DNA of 64,000 bases from an uncultured Phocaeicola sp. (GTDB taxonomy: Bacteria > Bacteroidota > Bacteroidia > Bacteroidales > Bacteroidaceae): the NCBI GenBank assembly GCA_944320815.1, contig CALUIZ010000002.1, forward strand, positions 62,001 through 126,000. Reading direction: 5' to 3'. The translations under genes and the position numbers were made by a program. The notes beneath the pieces are model-generated. The model did no database searches. It was not told where the DNA came from and was given only the letters and a program-made list of their open reading frames with translations. This document shows, piece after piece, positions 398 through 24,340 of the stretch. Position 1 is the first letter of the stretch. Every line of letters starts with the position of its first letter.

Positions 398-445
398 AGG
401 TGAAACAAAGGATGCCGATGCCTCGTGGGATGGCTTCGGGAAAAA

Positions 446-493: not shown

Positions 494-503
494 CTGTATC
501 TTG

Positions 504-1376: not shown

Positions 1377-1472
1377 GTTCGCTTGCATATATTGTCGCTT
1401 TTTATCAATCTTTTTAAGAAATATCATGGCAAGTTTCCCGTAAAACCTGCTAACTTTGCATATTGTTGTGCG

Positions 1473-1480
1473 CAAAGATA
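1473..1480 (-). promoter_or_regulatory. putative -7 element of nadK
   Basis: Minus-strand TATCTTTG fits the Bacteroides -7 consensus TAnnTTTG, upstream of the nadK start. No convincing -33 TTTG was found at the usual spacing. A second match, TAACTTTG, lies on the plus strand at 1451-1458 and could serve exbB. Confidence 0.45.
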
Positions 1481-1567
1481 TAAATTTTCAGGCAAAATGA
1501 ATTTGCGCGCTTCTTATTTTGAATATATATAATGTAGTGGACGAATAAAAATTGTATTTTGTGAATT

Positions 1568-2281: not shown

Positions 2282-2291
2282 ATCCGGGAGT

Positions 2292-2711: not shown

Positions 2712-2715
2712 CGGG

Positions 2716-3501: not shown

Positions 3502-3525
3502 ATTGTCAAACTAAATAAATGGAAT

Positions 3526-4074: not shown

Positions 4075-4745
4075 TGAGGAAATATCTGGTCGTTGTGGCA
4101 GGAGGGAAAGGGCTGCGTATGGGGGGGAGTGTCCCCAAGCAGTTTCTTCCGGTAAAGGGAAAGCCCGTGCTGATGCGTACGCTTGAAACTTTCCACTCCT
4201 GCGACAACGGGATAGAATTGATTGTGGTGCTCCCGGAGGAACAGCAGTCCTATTGGAGGCAGCTTTGTGTGGAGTATGGTTTCACTGTCCCTCATCGAGT
4301 GGTTTCGGGTGGTGAGACGCGTTTTCATTCGGTGAAGAACGGACTTTCTCTGATTCCTGATTCGGATGGAGTTGTCGGTGTGCACGATGGGGTTCGTCCG
4401 TTTGTCTCTGCGGAAGTGATAGCTGAATGTTACCGGCAGGCTGCAGAGAGAGAGGCGGTGGTGCCGGTTGTCGGTGTGGTGGAAACTGTGCGTCATCTGT
4501 TGCCCGGCGGAAGAAGCGAGACTGTTCCGCGGGATGACTATAAACTGGTACAGACTCCTCAGGTGTTTACGGTGAGTCTGTTGAAGCGGGCCTATTCCCA
4601 GGATTATGTGCCGGAGTTTACGGACGATGCTTCTGTGGTCGAGGCATTGGGACATCCGGTGTGTCTGATTCCGGGCAATCGGGAGAACATCAAGCTGACC
4701 ACTCCTTTTGATTTGAAGATGGCGGAGGTGCTTATTGAAGGCTGA
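4074..4745 (+). CDS. ispD: 2-C-methyl-D-erythritol 4-phosphate cytidylyltransferase
   Basis: Third enzyme of the non-mevalonate (MEP) isoprenoid pathway, joining CTP and MEP to give CDP-ME in the cytoplasm. The 223-residue length is typical. The nucleotide-binding start [20 protein letters not shown] carries the Gly-rich loop with the conserved Arg and Lys, and HDGVRPFV and the later PQVF and TDDASVVE motifs are all present. Its stop overlaps the recG start at 4745, so it is tightly coupled to recG. The isoprenoids it supplies also feed MenA, encoded nearby on the other strand. Confidence 0.95.
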
Positions 4746-6844: not shown

Positions 6845-6845
6845 T

Positions 6846-7328
6846 TTAAAGCAGAAGCTCATAGTCGAGGATGCCCAGCCAGCGTCCGAATTTATACCCT
6901 ACTTCCTGAAAATGCGATGCCTGTCTGAATCCTAACTTTTCATGCAGGGCGATGCTCTCTCCATTTCCTTCCGTGATGCAGGCTATGAGCGCATGGAATT
7001 CGGACTTCCTGCATTCTTCAATCAGAGCTTTCATGAGAACGCTTCCTATGCCTTGCCTTTTGTATGATGGATGAAGATAGACAGTCGTTTCTACGGTACG
7101 GCTGTAGGCGGCCTTTTCCTTCCAGCCGTGTGCATAGCAATATCCGATGATTTCATGGTTTTGTTCATAAACCAGATAGGGATAATGTGTGGCTATTCGG
7201 CTGATGCGTTCTCTCATTTCCGTTTCGTCTACAGGTTCCGTTTCAAAGGTAATGATAGTGTCTTGTATATACTTGTTGTATATATCCGCAATCTGTGCGG
7301 CATCCTGTGTCCTGACATGACGTATCAT
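6846..7328 (-). CDS. GNAT N-acetyltransferase, phosphinothricin-acetyltransferase-like
   Basis: A 160-residue GCN5-related acetyltransferase using acetyl-CoA. The acetyl-CoA loop RQGIGSVLM (about residues 91-99) is intact, and the start MIRHVRTQDAAQIADIYN and the EVGYKFGRWLG segment near the C-terminus are characteristic of the PAT/Bar-like subgroup, whose members acetylate small amines such as methionine sulfoximine or phosphinothricin. The natural substrate is not known. It lies 3 nt downstream of menA and is probably co-transcribed, without an obvious functional tie. Confidence 0.88.
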   Translation of the reverse strand: MIRHVRTQDAAQIADIYNKYIQDTIITFETEPVDETEMRERISRIATHYPYLVYEQNHEIIGYCYAHGWKEKAAYSRTVETTVYLHPSYKRQGIGSVLMKALIEECRKSEFHALIACITEGNGESIALHEKLGFRQASHFQEVGYKFGRWLGILDYELLL

Positions 7329-7331
7329 AGA

Positions 7332-8222
7332 CTATAATATTAATCCGACAGCGAGCAGAAGCCCGAAGAGAAACATGTTTCTTGAAGTCTCTCCCAGAAT
7401 GAGATTCAGTTCTTTCCCATGGTTGATTTTTGCCATTCTGATGGTGGTGAAAATATGGAACAGCAGATAGAGTTGCGGGAGAAGGGCGGCGAAAATCTTT
7501 CCGAGTGTGACAAAATAAAAACAGCACCAGCATGCGGTCAGCCCGAGAACAAAATAAAGAATCAGTCCGATGCGTGCTCCGAAGCGTACGACCAATGTAC
7601 GTTTTCCGCTGATGGCATCCTGCTGGCGGTCGCGGAAGTTGTTTACCATCAGCAACGTGTCGATGACGAGTCCGCAGGCGAGTGCTCCCATCGTTACGGC
7701 CATGTTCCATTCGTGCGCCATGACGTAATAAGTGCATCCTACAGGGACGAAGCCGAAGAATACCAGTACCAGCACATCGCCCCATCCGTGATAGGCGAGG
7801 GGATAAGGTCCGGTAGTGTAGAGGAAAGCGAATATGAGACAGGCGATTCCGACCGGAATCATTTCCCATCCTCCATAGCAGAGCAGACACAGGCCGACGG
7901 CTGCCGCCAGTCCTGTTGTGACGATGATGCCCGTTTTCATGGCCTTCACCGTAATCCATCCCTGCGCGCAGGCACGTTCCGGCCCGAGCCGGTCCTCGCG
8001 GTCACTTCCTTTCAGAAAGTCGAACAGGTCGTTGATAAGGTTTGAATCGATTTGCATCAGGAAGGCAAACAGAAAGCAGAGTGTTGCAGGAATGATTTGA
8101 AAATGTCCGTAAATGTAAGCCAGTGCGCAGCCTGTCATGACAGGAATTGCGGCGGCGGTCAGTGTTTTGGGGCGTGCCGCCAATACCCATGCCTTGAAAG
8201 AATTGGTCTGTATTGTGTTCAT
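7332..8222 (-). CDS. menA: 1,4-dihydroxy-2-naphthoate polyprenyltransferase
   Basis: Membrane UbiA-family prenyltransferase that attaches the polyprenyl chain to DHNA in menaquinone synthesis. The 296-residue protein shows about eight to nine hydrophobic helices and both Asp-rich motifs: NLINDLFDFLKGSDRED (about residues 63-79) and NNFRDRQQDAISGKRT (about 192-207). These bind the prenyl diphosphate through magnesium. The N-terminus KAWVLAARPKTLTAAAIPV is typical of MenA. A TAACTTTG element on the minus strand (8244-8251) lies just upstream. The GNAT gene follows almost without gap. Confidence 0.94.
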   Translation of the reverse strand: MNTIQTNSFKAWVLAARPKTLTAAAIPVMTGCALAYIYGHFQIIPATLCFLFAFLMQIDSNLINDLFDFLKGSDREDRLGPERACAQGWITVKAMKTGIIVTTGLAAAVGLCLLCYGGWEMIPVGIACLIFAFLYTTGPYPLAYHGWGDVLVLVFFGFVPVGCTYYVMAHEWNMAVTMGALACGLVIDTLLMVNNFRDRQQDAISGKRTLVVRFGARIGLILYFVLGLTACWCCFYFVTLGKIFAALLPQLYLLFHIFTTIRMAKINHGKELNLILGETSRNMFLFGLLLAVGLIL

Positions 8223-8243
8223 GACTTTTTATTGTTGTTGCGG

Positions 8244-8251
8244 CAAAGTTA
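8244..8251 (-). promoter_or_regulatory. putative -7 element of menA
   Basis: Minus-strand TAACTTTG fits TAnnTTTG and would start transcription about 15 nt before the menA ATG. No clear -33 element is seen. Confidence 0.4.
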
Positions 8252-8325
8252 GCTAATTTTTGTCAATTACGCCTGTGTCTGTCACAATAGCTTTTTCGCG
8301 GCTTTTTTTTAAAAGGAATATAGTG

Positions 8326-8333
8326 TACTTTTG
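8326..8333 (+). promoter_or_regulatory. putative -7 element of the thioredoxin-fold gene
   Basis: TACTTTTG fits TAnnTTTG, about 27 nt before the ATG at 8360. A T-run (8303-8310) lies about where the -33 element is expected. Confidence 0.45.
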
Positions 8334-8359
8334 ACTTGTAAATAAAATAATTGAATGCC

Positions 8360-10267
8360 ATGACACAACGTTTGAGTATGACAGTCATATCCTTGTTCTG
8401 TGCATTGTCTTTGTTTGCCGGAAAAAGAAGGATAGTAGAGTTGCCTGCGGTAAAAGCAGCCAACACTTCTGCGATAGAAATCAAGAGTGTGGAATTGTCT
8501 GACACAGCAACCGTGCTTGATGTCAGTGCCTGGTATCGGCCCCACTATTGGATACGTATCAGCCGTGATTCGTATCTGCTTGGAGACAATGGCGGGAAAT
8601 ATCCGATACGGTTCGGTACGGGGATAGAGCTGGGCAAGGAATTCTGGATGCCTGACAGCGGGACGGCTTCATTCAAGCTGCATTTTCCCGCCTTACCGGA
8701 GGAAGTGAAATCGTTCAGCTTTATAGAAGGAGATGTTGAAGACGGATGGAGAATTTTGGGAGTCATGCTGGAAGGGGAGAAAGACATCGTTCCTGAGCCT
8801 TACCGTTCGCAGCGTTTGGGGAGGCCGGAACCTTTGCCACATCCTGCTTTGACAGGAGGAAAGGCCACAGTTGAAGGGAAGTTGTTGGGCTATGTGCCGG
8901 AATTAGGACTGAAGCCATGCTTCCGTGTGCCTGTCTTGTGTGAGGGAAGTTTTGATTTTATTCCTGTGGATGTAAATCCGGACGGGACGTTTGTCGCGGA
9001 ACTTGAACTGGCTTCCGCTTCACAGGTGATGTTCGAGGCCGGTCCGTCTAGTTCGGGTGTGCGCATGTTCGTGGAACCGGGAGATACGTTGCGGGCAGCG
9101 GTGAATCTTCCTGAACTGATGCGGTCGGGAAGCCGTCTTCGGAAGCATCTGCCTTCACTTGGGAAAGTCTGTTATTTCAGCGGACATCTGGCTGCCTTGA
9201 ATGATGAGATTCTTTCGCGATGGCCTTCTCTCCCGAAATTGCCTTCGTATGAGGTCTATTTTCAGGATGTGGCAGGAATGACATTGGATGCCTACAAGAA
9301 GTACTGGCTGGAAAAAGAGCAGGCGTTGGAAAAGGAAATTGGCCGTGACAGGACATTGAGCGAGGGATGCCGCACTCTGTATATGAACCAATTGCGTTTG
9401 GACTGTGTAAATTCCCTGGATATGGCAAGGAGCAATTTGTCGGAGGCTCTGGTGGCCCGCGGCGGAATTTCCAGGGAGGAAGCCTATCAGAAGGTGGGCG
9501 GCATGGGATTCCCTTCGGATTATTTCGATTACCTGGAAAAGCTGCCTGTGTTGAATGATCCTCAGGCGATTTTCAATTTTTCTTATGCGCAGGTGCTGAA
9601 ATACAATGCCTACGACAAGCCGGATTCAGTAGTGAAGGATATTGAGCTGTGGCTGCCGAGGGAGAAAGGCTTTTATGCCGATTTGTCGGAGGTCATAAGG
9701 ATGGTACAGAAAATTCAGGATTTTATACCCCTGGACGAGACCGAACTGGCGGGTCTGCGAAATACAAAGTATCCTTATTTGGCAGAACGGCTGGAACGAA
9801 TGAATGGCAGTCTTCTGACTCTGATTGCTGAAAATGCGAAGAAGACTGGCTATACGGTGAATGAAGCGGGGAAGGTCAGCAATGAGGACCTGTTTTATTC
9901 GATGGTTTCCAAATTCAAGGGAAAAGTGGTTCTGGTAGATTTCTGGGCCACGTGGTGCGGTCCTTGTCGTCAGGCCATGAAACAGATGCAGCCGATGAAG
10001 GAAGAATTGAAGGACAAGGATATCGTATATCTGTTCGTTGCCGGAGAAAATTCGCCGGAGGAGACTTGGGAGCACATGATTCCGGACATTCATGGCGAAC
10101 ATTTCCGTCTGACAGATGAACAATGGAACTATCTGAATGAAGAATTTTCCATACAGGGTGTACCCACTTATCTGCTGGTGAACAAAGAGGGGAGGATTGT
10201 ACGGAAATATACAGGGTTTCCGGGAGTGGGAGAGATGAAGTCTAAACTGTTGGAATTATGCGAATGA
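8360..10267 (+). CDS. exported TlpA-like thioredoxin-fold protein
   Basis: A 635-residue exported protein with a signal peptide (about residues 1-20, ending SLFAG), a long N-terminal region without recognisable domain, and a C-terminal thioredoxin domain (about 505-635). The domain has the redox motif WCGPC within VLVDFWATWCGPCR and the cis-proline loop GVPTYLLVN. Bacteroidetes have many such TlpA/AhpC-TSA-type proteins, thought to reduce periplasmic disulphides or act in cytochrome maturation; the substrate is unknown. A TTG in frame at 8351 is possible, but ATG at 8360 gives the better signal peptide. Its last codons overlap the next gene by 10 nt. Confidence 0.85.
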   Translation: MTQRLSMTVISLFCALSLFAGKRRIVELPAVKAANTSAIEIKSVELSDTATVLDVSAWYRPHYWIRISRDSYLLGDNGGKYPIRFGTGIELGKEFWMPDSGTASFKLHFPALPEEVKSFSFIEGDVEDGWRILGVMLEGEKDIVPEPYRSQRLGRPEPLPHPALTGGKATVEGKLLGYVPELGLKPCFRVPVLCEGSFDFIPVDVNPDGTFVAELELASASQVMFEAGPSSSGVRMFVEPGDTLRAAVNLPELMRSGSRLRKHLPSLGKVCYFSGHLAALNDEILSRWPSLPKLPSYEVYFQDVAGMTLDAYKKYWLEKEQALEKEIGRDRTLSEGCRTLYMNQLRLDCVNSLDMARSNLSEALVARGGISREEAYQKVGGMGFPSDYFDYLEKLPVLNDPQAIFNFSYAQVLKYNAYDKPDSVVKDIELWLPREKGFYADLSEVIRMVQKIQDFIPLDETELAGLRNTKYPYLAERLERMNGSLLTLIAENAKKTGYTVNEAGKVSNEDLFYSMVSKFKGKVVLVDFWATWCGPCRQAMKQMQPMKEELKDKDIVYLFVAGENSPEETWEHMIPDIHGEHFRLTDEQWNYLNEEFSIQGVPTYLLVNKEGRIVRKYTGFPGVGEMKSKLLELCE

Positions 10268-11109
10268 GGAAGGAAATACTGTTCTTCTTTTCTGTCCTGT
10301 TTGCAGTTGCTTTTCTGCTTCCTTCGTGTGCCACAGCTTCTTTTTCGAAATACAAGGGAGTAGGCCGCATCAAGCAGTATGACTTCTACAGCGAGCAGGT
10401 GCCTGATTCGTTCGACGGATTCCGCATAGCCTTCGCGACGGATTTTCATTATGAAAGCCGTTTTACTGCGAAACGGCTTCCCGGAGTTGTACGTGCACTT
10501 CATGCCACAGATGCCGATGTGCTGCTGTTGGGAGGGGACTATCGCGGAAGGAACGGAGGGAATGTGGACGAGCTGTTTGCGGCCTTGCGGCAGGTGCATA
10601 CCCGTTACGGTACTTATGCCGTGATGGGAAATCATGAGAGAGGGGAGGCGGATACGCTGGTGCGTAGGGCAATGGCGCATACCGGCGTTCGTCTGCTGGA
10701 ACATGAGGTGGATACCCTCTGGAAAGGGAATGAATACATCTTGGTCTGTGGCATCCGCAATCCGTTTGATCTGAAGCGGAACGGGGTGTCGCCCACATTG
10801 GCACTCAGTCCGGACGACTTTGTGGTGATGCTGGTCCATACACCCGATTATGTGGAGGATGTGGATGTGTCGAACACTGACCTGGCCTTGGCTGGACATA
10901 CGCACGGAGGGCAGGTAAGTCTGTTCAGACGATGGACACCCGCCCATTTCTCGAAATACGGCAACCGCTTTCTGACTGGTCTGAGATACAGCAGTCGGGG
11001 CATTCCGGTCATCATCAGCAACGGTCTGGGCACATCGCGTAAGGATGTCCGTCTGTTCACTCCGAGTGAGGTGGTGCTGATTGTGCTGCATAAAAAGAAG
11101 AGCGAATGA
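10258..11109 (+). CDS. metallophosphoesterase lipoprotein or exported protein
   Basis: A 283-residue calcineurin-like phosphoesterase of the YkuE type. All metal-binding blocks are present in order: TDFHYES, GGDYRGRNGG, GNHERGE and AGHTHGGQ. The N-terminus has a hydrophobic segment followed by LPSCATAS, which fits a lipobox with the lipidated Cys near residue 23. YkuE-like enzymes act on phospholipid headgroups or other phosphodiesters at the membrane; the substrate here is not known. It overlaps the upstream thioredoxin-fold gene by 10 nt and is surely co-transcribed. A second in-frame ATG lies at 10264. Confidence 0.85.
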   Translation: MRMRKEILFFFSVLFAVAFLLPSCATASFSKYKGVGRIKQYDFYSEQVPDSFDGFRIAFATDFHYESRFTAKRLPGVVRALHATDADVLLLGGDYRGRNGGNVDELFAALRQVHTRYGTYAVMGNHERGEADTLVRRAMAHTGVRLLEHEVDTLWKGNEYILVCGIRNPFDLKRNGVSPTLALSPDDFVVMLVHTPDYVEDVDVSNTDLALAGHTHGGQVSLFRRWTPAHFSKYGNRFLTGLRYSSRGIPVIISNGLGTSRKDVRLFTPSEVVLIVLHKKKSE

Positions 11110-11123
11110 GATTATGAAAAAAA

Positions 11124-11155
11124 CAGGCGGTTGTCCTGATTCGGATAACCGCCTG
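11124..11155. terminator. bidirectional intrinsic terminator
   Basis: A 13-bp stem with one G-T pair (11124-11136 against 11143-11155) and a 6-nt loop lies between the convergent metallophosphoesterase and dehydrogenase-like genes. An A-run on the left (11116-11123) gives a U-tract on the minus strand. Confidence 0.8.
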
Positions 11156-11180
11156 CCTTATTTGAATTTCCCGTTTGTTT

Positions 11181-12089
11181 TCAGATGTTTTCCCGCTTGT
11201 CCAGAAACGTCTTGATGTTGTCCAGCGTTTTGCGGGAAAGCCGTCCGGTGCTTTGGATGGACTTTCCGGCGACAACCGGTGTATAGAATACATTCGGAAG
11301 TCCGGCCAGCTCATCGGCAAGCGTGCCCATTCCTGTCCCGTCGCAGAAATAATGGCTGTCCGGATTGGCCGCAAGCCATCTTTTCAAAGCTCCCATATCG
11401 AAAGTGGCTCCGATGGACGTATTCATCAGAATCTTTCCGTTCCCGAAGATGCGGAACTCTTTTTCTCCCAGCAGATACGTGTTTCTCGGCAGACAGGTAA
11501 GCACGATGTCGCATGTGCGGAGCAGTCCGTCCAAATCCAGATAGCGGAAACCTTTGTCCTCGGCTTCCGGTTTCCGGTTGCGGCTGTAATAATACACTTC
11601 GGAGCCGAAGAAACGGAAAGCGTCGGCCAGCATGCCCCCGGTTTTCCCCAGTCCGATGATTCCCACCTTTTGGCGGGTGAGTTCTTGTTTGTCGGCTTTC
11701 CACTGCTTTCCGCCGAATCCGTGCATGAAGCGCACCAGTTCGCTGATGGCATACTCCACGACCCCCTCATCGCCGTAGTCCTTCACTCCGGTTACGGTGA
11801 TTCCTTTCCGGCATGCTTCGGTCAGATCCACATTGCACGATGAGGCTTCGTAGAGCGTGCAGCACATACCGATGTACCGGATATTCGGGCAGGCATCCAG
11901 AATCTTCTTTGTAATCTGTGTCTTGAACGACACAAGCACTGCATCAGCGTTCCCTATCCGGCGGATTATTTCCTCTTCGTTTTCCGGAAACGTATCATAC
12001 AGGTTTACTTCTTTTGCATAGTGTAGAAGTTCTTTTCTTGCTTCCTCGCTGATAAGCGTATCTTCTACTGCTACAAGTTTCTCAAACAT
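11181..12089 (-). CDS. D-2-hydroxyacid dehydrogenase homologue with altered active site
   Basis: A 302-residue protein of the D-isomer 2-hydroxyacid dehydrogenase family. The NAD-binding Rossmann loop GLGKTGG (residues 146-152) and the following NAD-domain strands are well kept. However, the family's catalytic Arg (in NTxRG) is Ile226 in NTSIG, and the catalytic His (in TPHxA) is Val272 in TPVVA. It therefore may bind NAD(P) without classic dehydrogenase activity, or use another mechanism. I chose the start at 12089 ([10 protein letters not shown]); the upstream frame is the antisense-like tail of nadD. It overlaps nadD by 8 nt and is the last gene of the yicC-gmk-nadD run. Confidence 0.8.
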
Positions 12090-14384: not shown

Positions 14385-14416
14385 AACTTCTGTTTTTTTT
14401 TAAGTCATCCAAAGTG

Positions 14417-14424
14417 CAAAGTTA
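14417..14424 (-). promoter_or_regulatory. putative -7 element of yicC
   Basis: Minus-strand TAACTTTG fits TAnnTTTG about 33 nt before the yicC start. Confidence 0.45.
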
Positions 14425-14482
14425 TGAAAATCCGCGGGAAATGGAGAAGATATGGCGGAAAGAAAAATCGGATGCACCGGAA

Positions 14483-14574
14483 TATTCTCTATTCGGATAT
14501 TTTCTATTCTCTATCTCTAGGTTAAAGATATGTATCTTTAGATTGGATTTATGTATCTCTAGACTAGAGATAGA
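14483..14574 (+). repeat. direct repeats with 21-bp period upstream of the tubulin-like operon
   Basis: TATCTCTAG at 14512, TATCTTTAG at 14533 and TATCTCTAG at 14554 start exactly 21 bp apart, two turns of the helix. The next 12 bases are also related (AT-rich, ending TATG in the first two units). Just upstream TATTCTCTAT occurs at 14483 and 14505, 22 bp apart. The last unit contains a perfect palindrome ATCTCTAG-A-CTAGAGAT (14555-14571). Even spacing by helical turns suggests an array of protein-binding sites about 300-390 bp before the first gene of the operon. Confidence 0.65.
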
Positions 14575-14872
14575 GATTTTGTCCTTGTGTATTGGATTTT
14601 GGATCGGCTTCGGCGGACTTCTTTTTCTCCGGGTGTTTTATATGAATCTTGACGTTTCTGTAGTCTGGTCGGCATATCGGACAATAGGAACGGAGGGTGG
14701 CCGGTTCTTTTTCTCTTTTTACGAATCTGCAATGTTTGGGTGCGAACAGGAAGCGTTAGACTATACATGGTGTTAAAAAAGAATAAATAAATGTACGGTT
14801 CCGCTGACAATATTAATCTATTTTGATTTTTATTGTAGTTTTATGCGGCAGTAAAATATTATAATAATTTTG
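14575..14872. other. leader region of the tubulin-like operon
   Basis: About 300 bp without a convincing gene. The last 110 bp before the ATG at 14873 are AT-rich. No exact TAnnTTTG at a useful distance was found; CTATTTTGA at 14819-14827 is a near match with one base missing in the spacer. Confidence 0.5.
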
Positions 14873-15370
14873 ATGATTTCGTTTTTTGGAAACATACTGG
14901 CTTTTGCAATCGGTGCGTTATGTATTTCGACGGTACTGGTTCTCGTTCTACTGGTCACGGTACATTTAATTTATCCCGACTATTTGCGTAATGCACTTTT
15001 GGGTACGGTAGCGTTGACGTTGCCGTTATTTGTTTTTTTACTGGTGCAGTCTTTTCTGTTCTGCGGTGCCGTGTCCGTAAGGAATTGTGTCGTGTCGATA
15101 GAGGAAAATGTCGGGTCAGCGTCGGGAATGGCCAGTGAAATTATAAGCAGTTATCCGTTTCTGAGCGGTTTCTTCCCGTTAGAAGAAGGGGCGGAAGTTC
15201 CGGACGATTGTCTGTCAGAGCTCAGTTCCGCCGTATCGCATTATATATGGCGGCGTGTGTTGTGGGGAACGGGCGTGTTTGTATTGGCAGGACTTGTGAT
15301 TTTCTTCAATGCGGACAAGAAACAGAGACAGCTTGATTATCTGCGCCACCGTAATCTGATGAATTTATAA
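14873..15370 (+). CDS. multi-pass membrane protein, first gene of tubulin-like operon
   Basis: A 165-residue protein with no family I recognise. Two long hydrophobic helices lie near residues 3-30 and 38-62; a soluble loop of about 65 residues follows, then a third helix (about 130-147) and a basic tail (ADKKQRQLDYLRHRN). The loop is presumably periplasmic if the basic tail is cytoplasmic. ATG at 14873 is chosen over an adjacent TTG. It lies 20 nt before the tubulin-like gene, so an anchoring or scaffold role at the membrane is plausible; this is inference. Confidence 0.7.
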   Translation: MISFFGNILAFAIGALCISTVLVLVLLVTVHLIYPDYLRNALLGTVALTLPLFVFLLVQSFLFCGAVSVRNCVVSIEENVGSASGMASEIISSYPFLSGFFPLEEGAEVPDDCLSELSSAVSHYIWRRVLWGTGVFVLAGLVIFFNADKKQRQLDYLRHRNLMNL

Positions 15371-15390
15371 ACCTAATATTTTGAGATTTT

Positions 15391-18300
15391 ATGGATATTA
15401 ATGAAAATCACATTCTTGTTGGTCTGGGTGGAACAGGAGGGAAAGTTCTGAAAGCTTTTCGTAAAAGATTGTTTCAGGAGCATACTGCAGATCAACGTGC
15501 AAAACTTCCGCTAGGTTATGTGTATGTAGATTCTTCAAAAGAGATGATGCAGCCTAATGACATTACTTTCAGAGTGTTGGGGCAGGACGCTTCATTCAAT
15601 GAGAGTGAGTTTGTCTTTATTAAAGGAATCAATCTGCAAAGTGTGTTCAGTAATCCGAGCGGTTTCCCCGGTCTGAAGGGATTTATCGGTGATCCTGAAG
15701 TGATGCAGAAGACAATAGGCAGTGTGGAGGCTGCTGCTGCGCAAAAACGTCGTGCCGGACGCATTCTGTTCGGAAGTTCCGTGCAGGCCTATCTGAATAC
15801 GTTGAAGGGACAATATACGAAAGTAAAAAGTATCAGCAGTACTACAAAGCTGAATATACACATCTTTACCGGATTGGCCGGCGGAACAGGCTCCGGTTCT
15901 ATCATCGATGTGTTGGCGCAGACCCGCAATGAGTATCGTGACGCTAATATTATATTGTATGCGATGATACCGGAACACACTCCTCCCGGTACGTGCGATG
16001 CAGGCCGTTATCATGCGAATGGTTATGCAGCTTTAACCGAGATGAATGCTATGATGGTGAAGAAATATATGCCTTATGACGTTACGGGACATTCAGAGCG
16101 TGTGCCTTTGGAAAATGCTTCAAGGGTCGTGAACAGTTGCATTCTTTACAGTAACGAGAATGAGAACGGACTTACGGTTGAACCTCACAAACAGTTGCCT
16201 GCAATTGTTTCGGATTTTGCCTATAACCGTATATTCCTTGAACAGAATGACAATACGGAAGAGTTTTTGCGTTCGTATGCTCTTGAAAACATTGAGGATT
16301 TCCGGAATGAGAACAGCGAAACGGTGAAAGAAGGGAATATTGATGTGGTGCGTACGAAACTGTTCAGCTCTTTCGGTATCAAGCGGGTGGTCATTCCTGA
16401 AGAGGAAATCATTGAATATTTTACCTATTCGTTCGGTCGTCAGGCCTTGCTGCAGATGCGTTTTAACAATTGGAATGATGACATGGGGTTCCGTGACACT
16501 CCTGCCAATATAGATTTTCATTCGTTCGTTGCGGAGGCGGAAAATCTGGAACGATGGCGGATGACGGACAAGCATCTGACGCTTGACAAGCCGATCCTTG
16601 ATTCGGATCAGAAGAAGTGGAACGGATTCGCTGATTATTGGGGCGGTGTGATTCCTTTATGGACAGAGGAGGCAAGTAAGCAGAAGATGCCATTGAATGA
16701 ACTTGAACGATTCTGCTCAGAGGGGTATGATAAGTTCTTCCGTAAAGTTGGTGTGAAGAATTTCTTTGAAGGGAAGATGCAGGCCCGTGAGGAGCACGCT
16801 AATGAAATCTGTTCTCTGGTAGAGCAATATATGTTCGACAAATGGAGTACGGGGGATTTGTCTTTATACAACCTGTGTCAGCTTATCGACCGTGTCATTG
16901 AGGCGGCGGATTTGAAACGGAAAGAGTATGAAGGTAGAATTACAACCTGGAACCAGTCGATAGACCAGCTTGAGAAGGCTAAGGCAATGAACCAGCTGGA
17001 CTGGTCCAGCAAAGGGTTTATCGGTGGATTGCTGTCGAAAAACAAACTGATTCAAGCCCACTCCACTATTATGCAGCAGTTATATCTGAAGAAGACGGAA
17101 GTGGAAGGATTGCATTTCGCTGTGGCTATGCTGGCCGTTCTGTTGAACAAGTTGAATGCGTTGCGTGGGCGTATTGAGCGTTTCGTCAACATAATCAATG
17201 AAGCATTGGAAAATGCGGAGAAGCAGATAGGAAGCCGTTGTCAGGACAAGACCGGTATCTCCAATCTTCAGGAAACTATAATCCGTTTCTATGACAATAA
17301 CGCCGTGATGAAGTTCACGAAAGATGTCATCAAGGACAGGAACCGTCAGAAAGGTATTGCTGACGAGTTCCGTCAGGAGGTGCTTAAGCAGATAGGTACG
17401 GAGCATACTTTTGCGCGTGCCAATGCGACCATATCTTCGGACAGTATTTCCAATCTGCTTGATACTGTTGTCCGTGGAAAAGCTATAACGATTCATGACG
17501 AAGTGTTGATAGAGGACAATGAAAAGTTGATTAACCGGAATATTCTGGAACAGCTGCAGGAACAATATCATTCGGATGATGAGTTGAAGCAGTTTGCCAA
17601 GAAAATTATTGAGCAGAGTGGAGTGTTCCTTACATTCAATCAGACAGAAATCAATCGTGCTGTAAAAAACAATCCGATTCCACAACCGGGGCAGAATATA
17701 GACCGAAAGATTGTATTGGTAAATCTACCTAAAGTTGAAGGCAATGAAGTGGTTCAGAGGTTTGCCATGAAGCTTAAGGATGCTTTAGTGAATGCCGTGA
17801 CCGGAGGTGTGTTGGTTAAAGTGGATATGAACGGTACAAGAAAGAACGAGATGACAATTTCGAGCATAACCTATTGCTTCCCGGCACGTGCACTCAAGGA
17901 ATTGCCTTATCTGAAAGAGAAATATGATTATCTGGTGAATAACCCAAACGAAGCGCGCCAGAACCGGATTGTGCTGCATACGGAAGGAACCGGTGAAAAC
18001 TTCCCCAGCTTGTTTGTCAAGCAGGAAATGTTGCCGTCAGATGTCCGTAAGAAGTATACTCCGTATCTGATGACCGCTTATGCATTAGGCATTATAAAAT
18101 ATGCCGACAGGCAGGATGGTACAGGATTGAGTGCTTATGGGACAATCGAAGAGGATGCTTTGGGGCTGGAAATTCTGAATCCGTTTGCGGATAAATTTAC
18201 GGAGATTCCTTATTCTTCTAAATTTACGGAAGAGTTCGGGGAGGATTTGGCCGATAAATTGAAGTCCGCTCTGAAAACGGACTATCTGCATGTGGAAAAA

Positions 18301-18435
18301 CGGAAAACGTTGGTTACTCAGATTCAGAAACTGATTAAAGAGGTAATCCTGCCGGAATGTGGAGGCAATCAGGGTGGCGAGCAATTCCTCTTCTTTAAGG
18401 ATGCGGCATTGAAAGCAATAGAATTGGTAAAATAA
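15391..18435 (+). CDS. tubulin/FtsZ-superfamily-like protein
   Basis: A 1014-residue cytoplasmic protein. The N-terminus ILVGLGGTGGKVL (residues 8-20) and GLAGGTGSGSIID (161-173) match the first nucleotide loop and the G-box signature of the tubulin/FtsZ superfamily, as in the Tubulin_2-type bacterial proteins. The N-terminal part (about 1-400) would be the GTPase; the remainder is long, Lys/Glu-rich and helical, with likely coiled coil at about 505-680, and a C-terminal region of about 300 residues. It has no signal peptide or membrane helix. FtsZ and bacterial tubulins are about 350-480 residues, so more than half of this protein is extra. The neighbouring genes encode membrane and exported proteins. 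GTP binding is supported; polymerisation is not shown. Confidence 0.82.
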   Translation: MDINENHILVGLGGTGGKVLKAFRKRLFQEHTADQRAKLPLGYVYVDSSKEMMQPNDITFRVLGQDASFNESEFVFIKGINLQSVFSNPSGFPGLKGFIGDPEVMQKTIGSVEAAAAQKRRAGRILFGSSVQAYLNTLKGQYTKVKSISSTTKLNIHIFTGLAGGTGSGSIIDVLAQTRNEYRDANIILYAMIPEHTPPGTCDAGRYHANGYAALTEMNAMMVKKYMPYDVTGHSERVPLENASRVVNSCILYSNENENGLTVEPHKQLPAIVSDFAYNRIFLEQNDNTEEFLRSYALENIEDFRNENSETVKEGNIDVVRTKLFSSFGIKRVVIPEEEIIEYFTYSFGRQALLQMRFNNWNDDMGFRDTPANIDFHSFVAEAENLERWRMTDKHLTLDKPILDSDQKKWNGFADYWGGVIPLWTEEASKQKMPLNELERFCSEGYDKFFRKVGVKNFFEGKMQAREEHANEICSLVEQYMFDKWSTGDLSLYNLCQLIDRVIEAADLKRKEYEGRITTWNQSIDQLEKAKAMNQLDWSSKGFIGGLLSKNKLIQAHSTIMQQLYLKKTEVEGLHFAVAMLAVLLNKLNALRGRIERFVNIINEALENAEKQIGSRCQDKTGISNLQETIIRFYDNNAVMKFTKDVIKDRNRQKGIADEFRQEVLKQIGTEHTFARANATISSDSISNLLDTVVRGKAITIHDEVLIEDNEKLINRNILEQLQEQYHSDDELKQFAKKIIEQSGVFLTFNQTEINRAVKNNPIPQPGQNIDRKIVLVNLPKVEGNEVVQRFAMKLKDALVNAVTGGVLVKVDMNGTRKNEMTISSITYCFPARALKELPYLKEKYDYLVNNPNEARQNRIVLHTEGTGENFPSLFVKQEMLPSDVRKKYTPYLMTAYALGIIKYADRQDGTGLSAYGTIEEDALGLEILNPFADKFTEIPYSSKFTEEFGEDLADKLKSALKTDYLHVEKRKTLVTQIQKLIKEVILPECGGNQGGEQFLFFKDAALKAIELVK

Positions 18436-18446
18436 AAAAGAAGATT

Positions 18447-19100
18447 ATGAGTGGAAATAAAGCTGTTGTAAAGAAAGGGCGTTGTCTGAATATAGGCAAT
18501 TGCAATAAGGCGAACACGAAAGAGATCATTGAGGTCAATATCGGTGAGGACTTTATATGTCCTGAGTGCGGTGGCGAACTGGTTGAAGTAAAGCCGAAAA
18601 AGTCGGTGTTGCCTTATATTGTTGGAGGTGTCGTTGTAGTCGCCTTGGTCGTTGTGGGCTTGATGTTTGGCTTGAAGGGCGGGGAAAGTCCGGTTGAGGA
18701 TCCCGGAGAAGAACCGGAGATGGGAATCAGTAGCGGCAGTGTGGATTCGCTTGATGTGGATACATCAAATGTTGCTGTTGAGGCTTCGGGTGAAGATGCA
18801 ATAAAGCCGGAAACGGAAAAAGCTGGTAAAACTTCTCCCTCTTCTCCACGGATGGGAACATTGAACTTTGATTACGGCACCTATGTGGGAAGTATATCCG
18901 GAGGGAAAGCCAACGGATTGGGAACGCTGACTTATACGAAAAGACATCGTATCAGTACTAGTGATTCTCAGGAACGTTTTGCGGAACCGGGCGATTATGT
19001 GAAAGGTGACTTTGAGAATAATGAAGTGAAGACTGTCAAATGGTATGGTGCTGACAATAAGTTGAAAGGTGCCATCTTTGCAGGTTCTAACGGATTGTAG
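18447..19100 (+). CDS. zinc-ribbon, single-pass membrane, MORN-like protein
   Basis: A 217-residue protein of three parts. The N-terminal part has four Cys in a ribbon pattern (CLNIGNC near residues 12-18 and CPEC near 38-41). A hydrophobic helix follows (about 52-74), and then an acidic Ser/Glu-rich linker (about 76-130). The C-terminal part has Gly/Tyr repeats similar to MORN motifs (YGTYVGSISGGKANGLGTLTY region, then a second unit GDYVKGDFENNEV). With Lys before the helix, the ribbon should be cytoplasmic and the MORN-like part periplasmic, so it could link the tubulin-like protein to the exported proteins downstream. That link is inferred from order and topology only. Confidence 0.75.
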   Translation: MSGNKAVVKKGRCLNIGNCNKANTKEIIEVNIGEDFICPECGGELVEVKPKKSVLPYIVGGVVVVALVVVGLMFGLKGGESPVEDPGEEPEMGISSGSVDSLDVDTSNVAVEASGEDAIKPETEKAGKTSPSSPRMGTLNFDYGTYVGSISGGKANGLGTLTYTKRHRISTSDSQERFAEPGDYVKGDFENNEVKTVKWYGADNKLKGAIFAGSNGL

Positions 19101-19101
19101 T

Positions 19102-20238
19102 ATGATGTCTTCTCTCCGGTTTATAGGGATTCTGACTATAATGCTGGCTGTGGCGGTTCCGGCTACAGCCGGACATGGTGAGAATGCAGGGCATTGTGTG
19201 CTTTTGCAGGATGCGCTTCGGGTACATGGATTGGAAAGAACTTCTGAGAGTGTTCCTGTTCCTGACTGCGGTTCCCGGACATTTCATATGAAGTGGAATG
19301 GGACAGTTCTGCAGGATGCCGGAATCAATCTTTTCCCGGAAGACATGGAAAAGATCTATTCACCGGAAGTGTATGATTTCGTCGAACGCTTTTTCTTGTT
19401 GTTCGCCCTTCAGACTGAAGACGGCAGGAAGAATCTTTTGCGTCAAGATCATTTGAGATTGAATGTCAACGGGCGGGATTACAGTTCCGCCCGAGTGGCT
19501 CCGTGCAGCTTGCTTCAGGCTGTGGATGTTGAATCTCCTTTTGCTTTGAATGCGGACTCTTCTTGTTTTTATGCTTCCTGGCAGGGAATAGGCTTAAAGG
19601 TTGACTTTGTGTTTCCGAAACAATACGATTTGATATTCGGAAAGGATAAAAGGATGTTGACGGAAGAATTGCCATCCAGGTTGGAAAGTGTGTCGGATTC
19701 TGTCGCTATGGATAAGTTGGATTTTGATCTGTCTTCTTTTCAGCGGACGGCTTTAAAAGATGTTTATTTTGATTCGGAGGGGACGTTTCTGATTCCGCAG
19801 ATGAAAAGTGGAACCTATTTACAGAGAACAAAGGAAGGGTTTGATTATCTGTTTGATGAAAGATTTCCGGAAGAGTCGATGCTGAATCTTTTTACCGGAG
19901 CTTTTCGGATGGATATACCGATGGAGGCAGATTTGACGGTGAAGGGATATAGGTATGACTCCGCCAGTCTGATAACGTTGAAGCGTTTGACTGCGTTCAT
20001 GGACGGGACAGGCTGTAAGGCTTATGTGGGAATCGAAACGGTTTCTGAAGGGGAAATCACCGGTACGGTGGTCTATTTTAATTGGGATCTGATGTATGAA
20101 CATCTGTTGTGTTTCAGATTCCCATGTAGGGGATTTCATGATAAAAGGGAGAAGGCGAAGTTGGTATTGTATCCTTATATTCCTTTGAATAATGTGGAGA
20201 ATCTATATGATGATGTATCCGAACTTCCTTTGTCATGA
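19102..20238 (+). CDS. exported protein of unknown function
   Basis: A 378-residue protein with a signal peptide (about residues 1-24, ending PATAG). No known domain is recognised. It is rich in Phe, Tyr and Asp and looks like mixed beta structure. It starts 1 nt after the stop of the zinc-ribbon gene, so the two are probably translationally coupled; the frame is open further upstream to 19069, but the signal peptide decides for 19102 or 19105. It probably acts in the periplasm or on the cell surface with the neighbouring exported proteins. Confidence 0.7.
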   Translation: MMSSLRFIGILTIMLAVAVPATAGHGENAGHCVLLQDALRVHGLERTSESVPVPDCGSRTFHMKWNGTVLQDAGINLFPEDMEKIYSPEVYDFVERFFLLFALQTEDGRKNLLRQDHLRLNVNGRDYSSARVAPCSLLQAVDVESPFALNADSSCFYASWQGIGLKVDFVFPKQYDLIFGKDKRMLTEELPSRLESVSDSVAMDKLDFDLSSFQRTALKDVYFDSEGTFLIPQMKSGTYLQRTKEGFDYLFDERFPEESMLNLFTGAFRMDIPMEADLTVKGYRYDSASLITLKRLTAFMDGTGCKAYVGIETVSEGEITGTVVYFNWDLMYEHLLCFRFPCRGFHDKREKAKLVLYPYIPLNNVENLYDDVSELPLS

Positions 20239-20266
20239 TTTGAATAATGATAATTAAAATGTGGAA

Positions 20267-21106
20267 ATGAAGAACTTTCTGATATTTATATTTTTGTCTG
20301 CGTTTTTCCCTTGTGTCTTGTCGGCTCAGGTTGCTTATATGGAGGAAAAGGCGAAAGTGAATAAGATTAAGCGTAACTCGCAATATCTGTATGGGGAAGG
20401 TGTGGCTGCAACTTTGGAGGACGCTACGAGTCTTGCTGAGCAGAATCTTAAGAATGCCATTCTCACAGAAATGAGCGGAAACGATAAACTTCAGGGTGCT
20501 GACAAAATACTGGTCAATTCAATCAAGAAGCATTCCGAGAAGATTCAACTGAAGAGAGGGGCGATGGAACGTGTTTTTCTTTATGTCGAGAAGAAAAACC
20601 TTTTTCCCGCAGACCGTATGGTCGCGTTGGATATCTCGGCTTCTGTTCAGCCGGAATCGGTTGTTGTGGATGAAATCCCAGAACAATCGGGAGATGAAAA
20701 TCCAGATGTCATTGAACGGAAGAGTGGGGAAGCTCCTTCCGGGTATGTTGACACTGGGGCGGACAGTCAGAAAAAATCGGTTTTTGAATCTCTTGTGGAG
20801 TCCGTATCTTCATCAGCTCCTGTTGAAGTTTCATCGTCTGTGCTTCAGACAATATTGACTAAAAGGACGGTGTCTGAACTGGAGTCACTTATGCGGAATT
20901 TGAAAGCCGAGCATAAATTGATGTGGGGAAATGTCCGTTCTTCCGTTAATCCGCAGTGGTATGTAGCCGTTTTTTCGGGGAATGAGGTCAAGGCTGTCCT
21001 CGATCGTGAAACTTCTGGAAAGAGGACGGATTTGTTGACCGGAAAACAAGCCGCTTTGGATGATTATGCGTCGGATGTAAAAGTATGGTTTATCCTGTAT
21101 GAATAA
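20267..21106 (+). CDS. exported protein, N-terminal part LPP20-like
   Basis: A 279-residue protein with a signal peptide (about residues 1-20, LSAQ cleavage). Residues about 35-110 (YLYGEGVAATLEDATSLAEQ and following) resemble the LPP20/FlgT-type small domain found in outer-membrane and flagellar lipoproteins, with the usual Gly-x-Gly then long helix. A Ser/Glu-rich linker and a second small domain follow (about 185-279). ATG at 20267 is preferred over GTG at 20261. It is part of the tubulin-like operon. The domain resemblance is by eye and modest. Confidence 0.62.
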   Translation: MKNFLIFIFLSAFFPCVLSAQVAYMEEKAKVNKIKRNSQYLYGEGVAATLEDATSLAEQNLKNAILTEMSGNDKLQGADKILVNSIKKHSEKIQLKRGAMERVFLYVEKKNLFPADRMVALDISASVQPESVVVDEIPEQSGDENPDVIERKSGEAPSGYVDTGADSQKKSVFESLVESVSSSAPVEVSSSVLQTILTKRTVSELESLMRNLKAEHKLMWGNVRSSVNPQWYVAVFSGNEVKAVLDRETSGKRTDLLTGKQAALDDYASDVKVWFILYE

Positions 21107-21118
21107 AAATGTTGTGAA

Positions 21119-22087
21119 ATGAAAAAAATGTGGATATTTTTATTGGGCTTGTTAGGCACTGTCAGTGCATTTGCCCAGTATGAAACAGTTCTGGAGGTGA
21201 CAGATGCACCGAATACGACAGTTAAGTTGAATATGGAGCGTAATGGTACGCTTTTGCTTACAGAGTTGAATAATGCACAAGGGGAACAAAGGAGCTTGTC
21301 GTTAGGGGGGATTGATATTAGCGACCAGGCGGCCGAATCATTGATGATAATGTGGGAGGTTTGTCCTTTCAGATGTGATGAGCTTGAAATAATAGAGCCA
21401 TGTTTGCATGTGGGAAACAATCAGGCCTTACAAATACGTAATATTCCGGTAATTATGGAACCGAGGGAGGGCGAAAGGTTTGAAGAAGATGAGTATCAGG
21501 AAATTGTGTTGAATTTTGATAATTCCGGTAAGATTGTCAATCTTTGCTTTGCCTTGAATCAGACAATCTATAGCCAGGTGATGCGGAGTAATTTAGAGGT
21601 GACTGACTTGAGGCGGCGGTCACTTGTGCTGGATTTTGTAGAACAGTTCCGCACCGCATATAACAGAAAGGATATGGCTTTTCTGGAAGATATATTCAGT
21701 GATGATGCGCTGATTATCACCGGATCTGTACGTAAGCGTGTGAGTAATGATGGTGTGGGGTTTGTTTCAGGTGTGACGTATAAAGTGCAGAATAAGAAAA
21801 CTTATCTTAGCAATCTGTCAAATGTATTCAGGTCTAACCGACGTATAAATGTTGTCTTTGAGGATGTGAAAGTGATGAAGCATCGTCAGAAAGATTATAT
21901 TTATGGGGTAAAGCTGGTCCAGCATTGGAATGCTGACCGCTATAGTGACAAGGGATACCTGTTTCTGTTGTGGGACTTTAAAGATGAAGCCAATCCGAAG
22001 ATTCATGTGCGTACCTGGCAACCCTATAATGAAACGCCTAAGGAGGAAGTGTTTGGTTTGCAGTCATTTAATACAAGTAAGCTATGA
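21119..22087 (+). CDS. exported protein with NTF2/SnoaL-like C-terminal domain
   Basis: A 322-residue protein with a signal peptide (about residues 1-19, AFAQ cleavage). The N-terminal half is beta-rich and unrecognised. Residues about 175-305 look like an NTF2/SnoaL fold: an amphipathic helix LVLDFVEQFRTAYNRKDMAFLEDIF, FSDDALIITG, and late strands including GYLFLLWDFKD with the conserved aromatic positions. Such domains usually bind small ligands or mediate dimerisation. Its stop overlaps the start of the next gene by 4 nt (ATGA). Confidence 0.65.
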   Translation: MKKMWIFLLGLLGTVSAFAQYETVLEVTDAPNTTVKLNMERNGTLLLTELNNAQGEQRSLSLGGIDISDQAAESLMIMWEVCPFRCDELEIIEPCLHVGNNQALQIRNIPVIMEPREGERFEEDEYQEIVLNFDNSGKIVNLCFALNQTIYSQVMRSNLEVTDLRRRSLVLDFVEQFRTAYNRKDMAFLEDIFSDDALIITGSVRKRVSNDGVGFVSGVTYKVQNKKTYLSNLSNVFRSNRRINVVFEDVKVMKHRQKDYIYGVKLVQHWNADRYSDKGYLFLLWDFKDEANPKIHVRTWQPYNETPKEEVFGLQSFNTSKL

Positions 22088-23511
22088 GAAGCAGAATGAT
22101 TAGGAGTAAGTGCGCTTTTGTCGTATTGTTGTGGCTTTCCTCTTTTTTTACTTCGTTGGCTCAGGATATAAGAATCACGCGTCAGCCGGATCGCTCATAT
22201 CCGGATGCGTATATGGCTAAGCTTGAGTTTGTCTCGAATAGTGACAAGTTGGAGTTCAATGAAAATACAGGCGTGACTATGTCTGCCCCGGAGCAACGTA
22301 ATGGAAAATATGTTTATTCTGCCGTTATTGATGTTGCGGATGGGGGAGGACTGAACTTTCAGATATGGCAGCGTGGCAGTGTGGATAAAAAGGAACTGGA
22401 AGTAATGTTGGACGAAAAGACATGGGTGTCTTTTGATATTGAAGTGACAGAACTTCCGCTTATAATTCAGGATATAAAGGTTACCGCACCGCATGTTGCC
22501 CATGCGCAGGCGCAGACAGCGTTGATTTCTGTTCTTTGCAATGACGGGACTTTGGATGTTGAGGTATATGCCGGACAGGCAAAGGCTTCTAATGTAAAGT
22601 CTGATGCTCCTGTGAAGAAGGAGGATGGTTCGTATGAGTATCTTCAGACTGTGGATTTGACTGGGGTTCCCCCGGAAACAGAATATTCTTTGCGTCTGAC
22701 AGTAGGGGGTAATCCGGAAGTTAAGTCATTCGTTGTAGGTCAGTTGGCTCAGAAGGATGGAGTTGAGATTGCTGTGAGTGTGGTTCAGGAGTCATCATGT
22801 TTTCGTCACAATGAAAGCATGGCCGAGAATGCTTTTATCAACGGGTTGTATCGCGAGGCATACTTTGCCTATAAGGATGCGCTTGAGTGTGATGATAAGG
22901 AAGATGAAGGGATGATTAAAAAGAAAATGAGAAACTCAGCCATATTGACCAATGCGAAATCCAGGGTAATGAAGCATGTTGAGAAAGCGGATGCTTTCCG
23001 GAGAAATGGAGAGATGGACAGTTGTATGCATTATTATCAGGATGCTTATAAATATGCAGCGGCCATTCTGAAGATGAATCCTAACGATTCTTATTGTATA
23101 CGTTTCAACAGAGATTACGCAAAGATAAGGAGTGAACTGCCCAGAGTTGTGTCCGGAATAGTGGTAGATCAGGGCAAGCTGGGATTGGATGGAAAAAATC
23201 TGCCTTTGGCCAACGTGTATGTCGTTTTGTATAGGCATGAAGTGGAAATGGATCGGATTAAAGGAGTGATGACACCTAAACCGGGCAAAGTCCTTGAAAC
23301 GAAAGTCTTGGCAAAAACAGATGAGACCGGACGTTTTGAAGCTTTTGTCCCCCGGAACAATTCTTATGCTATTTATGTGCTGTATTTTGTATTTGATAAG
23401 GAGGAGACTGGTCTGACGCGTGTGCCGGAAATAAAGTATGTGCCGAATGACAAGGATGTGCAGAAAGGGCTTGTGGTTCGTTTTATTTCAAAGAGAATAA
23501 ATAAAAATTAA
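22084..23511 (+). CDS. exported protein with TPR-like and Ig-like regions
   Basis: A 475-residue protein with a signal peptide (about residues 1-27, SLAQ cleavage). The N-terminal half (about 28-225) is beta-rich and may hold two Ig-like domains. A helical region follows (about 235-350), with two TPR-like units such as FINGLYREAYFAYKDALE and EMDSCMHYYQDAYKYA. The C-terminal part (about 355-470) resembles a carboxypeptidase-regulatory/Cna-B-type beta-sandwich, including VVSGIVVDQG, ANVYVVLYR and TDETGRFEAFVP. The repeat and sandwich content suggests a binding or scaffold protein in the periplasm. It overlaps the upstream gene by 4 nt. Confidence 0.68.
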   Translation: MRSRMIRSKCAFVVLLWLSSFFTSLAQDIRITRQPDRSYPDAYMAKLEFVSNSDKLEFNENTGVTMSAPEQRNGKYVYSAVIDVADGGGLNFQIWQRGSVDKKELEVMLDEKTWVSFDIEVTELPLIIQDIKVTAPHVAHAQAQTALISVLCNDGTLDVEVYAGQAKASNVKSDAPVKKEDGSYEYLQTVDLTGVPPETEYSLRLTVGGNPEVKSFVVGQLAQKDGVEIAVSVVQESSCFRHNESMAENAFINGLYREAYFAYKDALECDDKEDEGMIKKKMRNSAILTNAKSRVMKHVEKADAFRRNGEMDSCMHYYQDAYKYAAAILKMNPNDSYCIRFNRDYAKIRSELPRVVSGIVVDQGKLGLDGKNLPLANVYVVLYRHEVEMDRIKGVMTPKPGKVLETKVLAKTDETGRFEAFVPRNNSYAIYVLYFVFDKEETGLTRVPEIKYVPNDKDVQKGLVVRFISKRINKN

Positions 23512-23534
23512 TGTTAAATTAAAGCCAAACAGTT

Positions 23535-24278
23535 ATGAAAAAGAATTATGTGAAAATTGTACTTCTGGCTATTATTGCCATGATGTGCTTTGCTCCAGTG
23601 GCGGAAGCCAAGAGTGACAAGAAAAAGAAAGAGAAAAAGAAATTTGAATGGGTTATGCCCGAGAAATTGACCGGGCTTGAGGATTTCGATCAGTATCTTC
23701 TGACTTGTGATACATTGTATAATCGTATTACGACTTATCGTGATTCCATTCATTTTTTTCAGATTGACACAGTGTTGGTTAAAGACAATGGCGTTGCTTA
23801 CTATGACATACAGATCCGTGATGAGCAGGGCACAAAACGTAGTTGGATTCAGTCTATCCAGCAGGGAGCTGATTTAATATTTACCGGTACTGATATTGTC
23901 TTGGATGCGGCTAATATAACTTTAATGACGACATCGGCCGGATTATCTCTTACTTCGAAGCCGATGCTTGCATTTTCTTATGGTAAATATCTTAAGGCCG
24001 GGCCGAAGATAGTCGGGCTTGCGTATAATGAGGTGAAGGAGATTGTGAACCGTACAAAAGCTCAGATGAAAACTATGAAAGAAATCCATAAAAATAAGGT
24101 TGATAAGTCAACGGATACAGATTATTTGGTTCTTGTTCCGGAAGGTGAAGAAATTAATCTGGAGGAATGTGTAGAACTGAGTTCGATTGATTTGGGAGAT
24201 ACTGCCGCTCAGGATCTTCCGGCGGAATTGTTGGACGAAAGTCTTGATGCTGAGTTGACGGTGGAAGAACCGAAATAA
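23535..24278 (+). CDS. exported protein of unknown function, last gene of operon
   Basis: A 247-residue protein with a signal peptide (about residues 1-25, AEA cleavage) followed at once by a Lys run (KSDKKKKEKKK). The middle part contains a hydrophobic region (about 120-160, VLDAANITLMTTSAGLSL) that may be a membrane-embedded or aggregation-prone helix pair. The C-terminus is strongly acidic (LDESLDAELTVEEPK). No domain is recognised. A perfect terminator follows its stop, so it closes the operon. Confidence 0.65.
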   Translation: MKKNYVKIVLLAIIAMMCFAPVAEAKSDKKKKEKKKFEWVMPEKLTGLEDFDQYLLTCDTLYNRITTYRDSIHFFQIDTVLVKDNGVAYYDIQIRDEQGTKRSWIQSIQQGADLIFTGTDIVLDAANITLMTTSAGLSLTSKPMLAFSYGKYLKAGPKIVGLAYNEVKEIVNRTKAQMKTMKEIHKNKVDKSTDTDYLVLVPEGEEINLEECVELSSIDLGDTAAQDLPAELLDESLDAELTVEEPK

Positions 24279-24280
24279 AA

Positions 24281-24319
24281 GAAAAATCCCCATTACGAAT
24301 TGAGTGATGGGGATTTTTC
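24281..24319. terminator. bidirectional intrinsic terminator
   Basis: A perfect 13-bp inverted repeat (24281-24293 against 24307-24319) with 13-nt loop. The arms carry A and T runs, so it works in both directions between the tubulin-like operon and the convergent utilisation-locus operon. Confidence 0.9.
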
Positions 24320-24340
24320 TTTATCTGTTGTGGTTATATT

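Follow-up and report, generated by a model that had tools for sequence, protein, structure and literature searches.

The FtsZl1 family of tubulin-like proteins was defined by Makarova and Koonin in 2010, with a member from Bacteroides caccae in their Figure 1, and was proposed to act as a multi-component membrane-remodelling machine (PMC2875224). The majority of FtsZl1 operons contain a gene for a vWA protein, and a reviewer of that paper already raised the puzzle of cytoplasm versus periplasm (PMC2875224). The T6–H7 segment and the tubulin-like C-terminal part of the family went unrecognized in 2010; according to the same authors, all characterized members of the FtsZ/tubulin superfamily polymerize (PMC2875224). 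The equivalence of FtsZl1 with Tubulin_2 is given in PMC9871819. Kaur 2020 counted tubulin operons from other phyla as conflict systems, and described systems in those phyla that combine tubulin with DO-GTPase and GAP1 (PMC7159879).

The window analysed here, a 64,000-nt stretch of DNA (G000:C2:62001-126000) within a 3.14-Mb genome, carries eight ORFs, all on the + strand, between 14873 and 24278, and an ORF check returned the same positions as the earlier note. The genes are separated by 20, 11, 1, 22 or 28, 12, -4 and 23 nt, with 28 nt as the maximum. The gap list given earlier stands, except that its fourth value becomes 22 nt if P5 starts at GTG 20261 rather than at ATG 20267 (28 nt). A hairpin of 19 pairs followed by a T tract, an intrinsic terminator at 24278..24322 (+), closes the operon; the remaining terminator-like sites of the region were no more numerous than in shuffled sequences. 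ORFs, gaps and hairpin agree with the earlier claim of an eight-gene operon with a single closing terminator, and the eight genes are confirmed as one transcription unit ending at this site. A 488-bp intergenic region (14385-14872) separates P1 from the divergent yicC, and a 120-aa ORF of doubtful status lies between the two genes (14414-14776). Matches to the Bacteroides -7 box upstream of the operon were no commoner than expected by chance, Rfam returned zero matches within the operon, and no tRNA was found within the 64,000-nt window.

The second gene (15391..18435, +) encodes TUB, a 1014-aa Tubulin_2/FtsZl1 protein identified by Pfam, alignment and an AlphaFold model. TUB matched Pfam Tubulin_2 (PF13809) at E=3.2e-67 and 227.7 bits, compared with a curated cut-off of 27, and Pfam Tubulin (PF00091) at 5e-5, which is under the cut-off of that family. 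The model, built from 18 relatives, reached a mean pLDDT of 86.9 and a pTM of 0.69. When it was compared with solved structures by VIA-align, three CetZ chains were the top matches (Z 25.9, 24.9 and 24.0), followed by tubulins at Z ~23, and Foldseek gave a concordant result. In the best alignment, 310 of 360 CetZ residues were matched at an rmsd of 3.8, with CetZ residues 1-346 laid onto TUB 4-855, bearing out the tubulin-superfamily membership that had been claimed from the sequence. The predicted structure has both domains of the tubulin fold, the C-terminal sheet among them: a GTPase domain (about 1-357, from model and alignment) in which S7-H9 of tubulin can be matched to strand 325-334 and helix 337-357, a mostly helical insert of ~410 residues (about 358-771), the tubulin C-terminal sheet (about 772-830) with strands 772-780, 808-815 and 820-830 fitting S8-S10, and an extra C-terminal domain (838-1014). 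Long helices at 492-540 and 542-614 correspond to the helical region of FtsZl1 proteins. We therefore read the model as a whole tubulin fold that is split between H9 and S8 by the helical insert, with approximate borders, because the 310 matched CetZ residues exceed what the N-terminal domain alone could cover. Profile alignment of the C-terminal half with FtsZ (hhalign) was too weak, and searches of solved-structure sequences with the TUB profile gave nothing useful. The earlier note had called the protein oversized; it is indeed large, and the model explains this by the insert, but its size is normal for the FtsZl1 family. A canonical FtsZ is also encoded in the genome, at G000:C17, which rules out TUB as an FtsZ replacement; TUB is therefore not the division protein.

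Both GTP-binding motifs reported for TUB, T1 (GLGGTGGK, 11-18) and T4 (GLAGGTGSGS, 161-170), proved intact. Their glycines are near-invariant among 48 full-length TUB copies, with the T4 core (GGTGSG) kept in 48/48. After a short H7-like helix, the model places a candidate T7 loop, E299-N300...E307, of which E299/N300 are conserved in 47 and E307 in all of the 48 copies. Two loci (L165 and L166) each encode a 774-aa tandem paralogue (g05) directly upstream of intact TUB, in which T1 reads GLGDNGS, T4 reads SLS--EGAG and the E-N pair is absent. That all three are lost together points to the E-N...E loop as a part of the nucleotide site, like T7. A second copy of 561 aa in L179 (g14) is partly degenerate (GLGRLGG, SDGTGSG, ET). 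Such degenerate copies are candidate pseudo-GTPase partners, and their presence suggests that active and inactive TUB subunits may be paired in some species.

TUB is flanked by genes for two membrane proteins. P1 (14873..15370, +) is an inner-membrane protein that occupies the same slot in most loci; hydropathy and the family alignment support its three transmembrane (TM) stretches (8-26, 46-64 and 129-147), as previously described. By the positive-inside rule, its TM2-TM3 domain (~65 aa) is predicted to be periplasmic and its C-terminal tail, which is Arg-rich in most relatives, cytoplasmic. P3 (18447..19100, +) combines a zinc ribbon (C13, C19, C38 and C41, on the predicted cytoplasmic side), one TM helix (58-76 by hydropathy), an acidic linker and a MORN-like domain, as recognized from profile searches, hydropathy and its pairing with TUB. 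The MORN unit was weak when a single sequence was used (E=0.076) and clear with the family profile (3e-9 against solved MORN1), in line with the cytoplasm-to-periplasm zinc-ribbon/MORN protein proposed in the earlier note. Outside Bacteroidales, too, the zinc-ribbon and TM half of P3 accompanies TUB: L061 has it joined to PBP_like_2 and OmpA domains, and in the Paraburkholderia locus L195 a P3-like N-terminal half (E=1e-12) is fused to TPRs. Co-variation with TUB was highest for P3 (Mantel r 0.56), then P1 (0.43), and ranged from 0.27 to 0.33 for P4-P8, all values being uncorrected for linkage. As the TUB-P3 pairing persists even in Paraburkholderia, P3 is probably a tubulin-to-periplasm adaptor with an exchangeable periplasmic domain.

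The remaining five proteins have signal-peptide-like N termini without a lipobox, as judged by hydropathy, consistent with the five exported proteins noted earlier. Fold hints for all of them were weak. The C-terminal half of the P4 model (19102..20238, +; pLDDT 82) weakly resembles NTF2-like cones (Z 6.7). P5 (20261..21106, +, from the GTG start) has a conserved N-terminal domain and showed a weak LPP20 match in one relative. P6 (21119..22087, +) is the most conserved exported protein of the cassette and has an NTF2-like C-terminal domain, matching Cds6_C (best member 6.9e-5) and, weakly in 14/17, DUF4440. Against solved structures its profile found 4xzz alone, at 0.26, an entry that we take to be H. 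pylori Csd6; the profiles of P4, P5 and P7 yielded nothing useful in solved-structure sequences. P7 (22084..23511, +) has a TPR-like middle and a weakly carboxypeptidase-regulatory-like C terminus by profile matches, and constitutes the exchangeable slot of the cassette; the type found in the window is homologous to the common 520-aa type (hhalign probability 98%). P8 (23535..24278, +) is a basic/acidic protein by family comparison, and many of its relatives contain a glycine-zipper-like stretch.

Whole-genome searches detected relatives in 12/61 genomes of the genus and 15/393 of the order, both counts including a few weak matches, and in 40/399 genomes of the family (26/208 among the good ones). 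In 34 of the 50 loci with a called TUB, P1-TUB-P3-P4-P5-P6 runs uninterrupted; most exceptions trace to the end of a contig, to frameshifted drafts (L014) or to genes that the simple ORF caller overlooked. P7-P8 come next in 21 of those 34 loci, and a second group of loci has PEGA, FGE-sulfatase and outer-membrane beta-barrel proteins in their place. Gaps of ≤50 nt separate 238 of the 286 neighbouring cassette gene pairs. Flanking genes vary among loci, and relatives have another gene upstream of yicC. The recurrence of gene order with unlike flanks is thus confirmed as going beyond chance. It shows that the genes are not scattered in relatives. Neither of the two refuting conditions checked from the earlier note, a fold unlike tubulin and scattered neighbourhoods, therefore applies. 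The earlier interpretation is supported in part: the tubulin fold, the single operon and a cytoplasmic tubulin tied to membrane and exported proteins hold up.

Compared with the window, two genomes of the same genus are 88% (G413) and 83% (G408) identical in YicC and 31% and 37% identical in TUB, respectively, whereas a genome of another family (G729) is 59% identical in YicC and 65% in TUB. This discordance in both directions means that vertical descent alone is insufficient to explain the distribution; judged by these comparisons, the cassette, which is patchy within the family, moves horizontally. Between the window and L043, dN was low (0.13-0.69) and is stated alone because synonymous sites are saturated. 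Among the commonest flanking families, none pointed to a mobile element at the cassette borders. A defence-island location was ruled out: the flanks consist largely of metabolic or housekeeping genes, with no enrichment and no defence-gene clustering among 110 flanking proteins. Phage origin was rejected after zero matches in 50,697 phage records and none confirmed among viral contigs, as was plasmid origin, for which the single distant match fell on a 1.09-Mb Paraburkholderia replicon.

Other loci of the family differ in content. In relatives, the partner genes include some that encode OmpA, PEGA and beta-barrel domains. The Paraburkholderia locus L195 (plasmid NZ_CP155075, 6698-14429) carries a proteobacterial form of the pair, TUB with a partner of zinc-ribbon-TM-TPR architecture; Gly-zipper, caspase (C14) and DUF4384 genes lie immediately upstream of TUB, and a divergent CsgG gene is found on the opposite strand. 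In two Bacteroidota loci of vWA type (L065 and L069), a gene for an exported vWA protein adjoins the tubulin gene; L063 (G393, 2923-6486), in which a 1187-aa protein with protein kinase and HSP70 domains adjoins the FtsZl1 gene, probably also belongs to this type. A distinct FtsZl1 locus from the genus of the window (L067, G396, 922-11619), not of the eight-gene type, encodes a predicted Zn-protease (DUF2268) together with an exported protein of 550 aa and another protein of 1009 aa. In L071 (G184, 172-9524), a Tubulin_2-like gene shares its strand with the genes of three proteins that resemble TerD by eye, which hints at a connection with operons of the tellurite-resistance type. Finally, an in-frame TAG splits TUB of L056 (G836) into 755 and 265 aa in an otherwise intact cassette.

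We consider it an even call that the cassette is a horizontally moving GTPase scaffold that is tethered to the membrane and exerts its action across the envelope. Starting from the predicted fold, the GTP motifs, the operon, the gene order, the TUB-P3 pairing and the export signals, this reading would add TUB polymerization, physical contacts, a direction of coupling and an outcome. By analogy with the superfamily, TUB would bind GTP and assemble head to tail in the cytoplasm, each neighbouring subunit contributing its T7-like E299-N300...E307 loop to complete hydrolysis. The zinc ribbon of P3 and the basic tail of P1 would hold the assembly at the inner membrane, and the P3 TM helix would relay its state or position to the periplasmic MORN domain. 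That domain may in turn organize P4-P6 and the exchangeable P7-P8 at the wall and outer membrane, with the PEGA, FGE-sulfatase and beta-barrel module substituting for P7-P8 where present, such that the envelope would be braced or remodelled locally. Arguing for this reading are the structural match to CetZ, the near-invariant T1/T4 glycines and E-N...E loop, the persistence of the P3 zinc ribbon and TM helix with TUB, the co-variation of P3 and P1 with TUB, the OmpA, PEGA and beta-barrel domains of partner genes, and the separate canonical FtsZ. Arguing against it are an insert that could block filament assembly, the weak profile comparison with FtsZ, the weak fold hints for P4-P8 and a patchy spread that would also suit a conflict system. 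More tentatively, the cassette may represent a separate class of envelope machine driven by a tubulin, marked by a split tubulin fold with a helical arm, a zinc-ribbon TM adaptor with interchangeable periplasmic heads, interchangeable wall/outer-membrane modules, and GTP-driven assembly transmitted across the inner membrane.

A role in anti-phage or inter-bacterial conflict, with variable exported or outer-membrane parts that sense an invader or rival and tubulin assembly as the triggered effector, along the lines that Kaur 2020 put forward for operons of this GTPase/tubulin kind (PMC7159879), appears rather unlikely to us. Patchy presence in the family, the horizontal movement indicated by G413 and G729, the caspase gene beside TUB in L195, and a constant core with a variable end carrying PEGA and FGE-sulfatase, domains named in that study (PMC7159879), all speak for it. 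However, PADLOC gave no match above noise for the eight proteins (the sole hit was PDC-M42C for P5, at 0.016), the flanking proteins showed no defence-gene clustering, the window cassette lacks GAP1, DO-GTPase, vWA, nuclease and pore domains, and its variation is modest. It is less probable still that a surface product of the P7/P8 type is delivered through outer-membrane partners, with the tubulin positioning or powering this delivery. Such an export or assembly platform would account for five exported proteins and for the beta-barrel and CsgG-type genes that adjoin TUB in relatives, and the exchangeable module could be its cargo, yet the cassette has no channel, pilin or secretion ATPase, and the CsgG gene of L195 lies on the opposite strand.

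TUB could also be a non-polymerizing GTP switch, its insert and extra C-terminal domain forming a fixed complex at P3 and P1. In its favour, the 410-residue insert lies in the C-terminal half, and the pseudo-GTPase paralogues next to TUB point to hetero-dimers in certain species. Since the T7-like acidic loop is retained and polymerization is common to all characterized superfamily members (PMC2875224), we give this alternative little credence. Under the scaffold reading, genuine coupling would mean that a tubulin works across the inner membrane in a role other than cell division, and P3 as likely adaptor renders the cytoplasm-to-periplasm puzzle testable.

FtsZl1 has been a widespread and unexplained branch of tubulins since 2010, of which a compact eight-gene Bacteroidales version is now defined, in carriers related to tractable gut species. 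The earlier statement that its function is not described was too strong given the published proposals of a membrane-remodelling machine and a conflict role. What is new here is a structural reason for the size of TUB, the natural occurrence of pseudo-GTPase copies and a set of residues suited to mutation; part of the Bacteroides gene set is possibly already listed in the supplement of Makarova and Koonin.

Among described systems, FtsZl1 is the closest: TUB belongs to the same family, is likewise large, with an N-terminal GTPase part and a long helical region, and is encoded in an operon with membrane and exported proteins in a genome that also has canonical FtsZ (PMC2875224). In contrast to the 2010 description, the model reveals a complete tubulin fold with an insert. 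Unlike FtsZl1 operons with vWA, OmpA, kinase and GTPase genes, the window cassette has no vWA, kinase or GTPase genes, and its type is defined by a constant P1-P3-P4-P5-P6 set; the vWA-type loci L065 and L069 (probably also L063) share its Pfam family and phylum but not its gene set. CetZ, the archaeal shape tubulins, provided the best structural matches, but these proteins are ~360 aa long and without insert, and none is known to be encoded in an operon of this kind. The GAP1-N2 DO-GTPase tubulin systems resemble the cassette in having a tubulin with a C-terminal helical extension, zinc ribbons, TM links, NTF2/PEGA/FGE-type domains and a patchy distribution (PMC7159879). They occur in firmicutes and actinobacteria, whereas the window cassette is found in Bacteroidales and lacks DO-GTPase, GAP1, FNIII and vWA; domain searches of the eight proteins found no vWA at E≤1 and zero matches to GTPase or GAP1 families. 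Because it lacks vWA, DO-GTPase and GAP1, the window cassette is, by its predicted gene content, a separate type within the FtsZl1 family.
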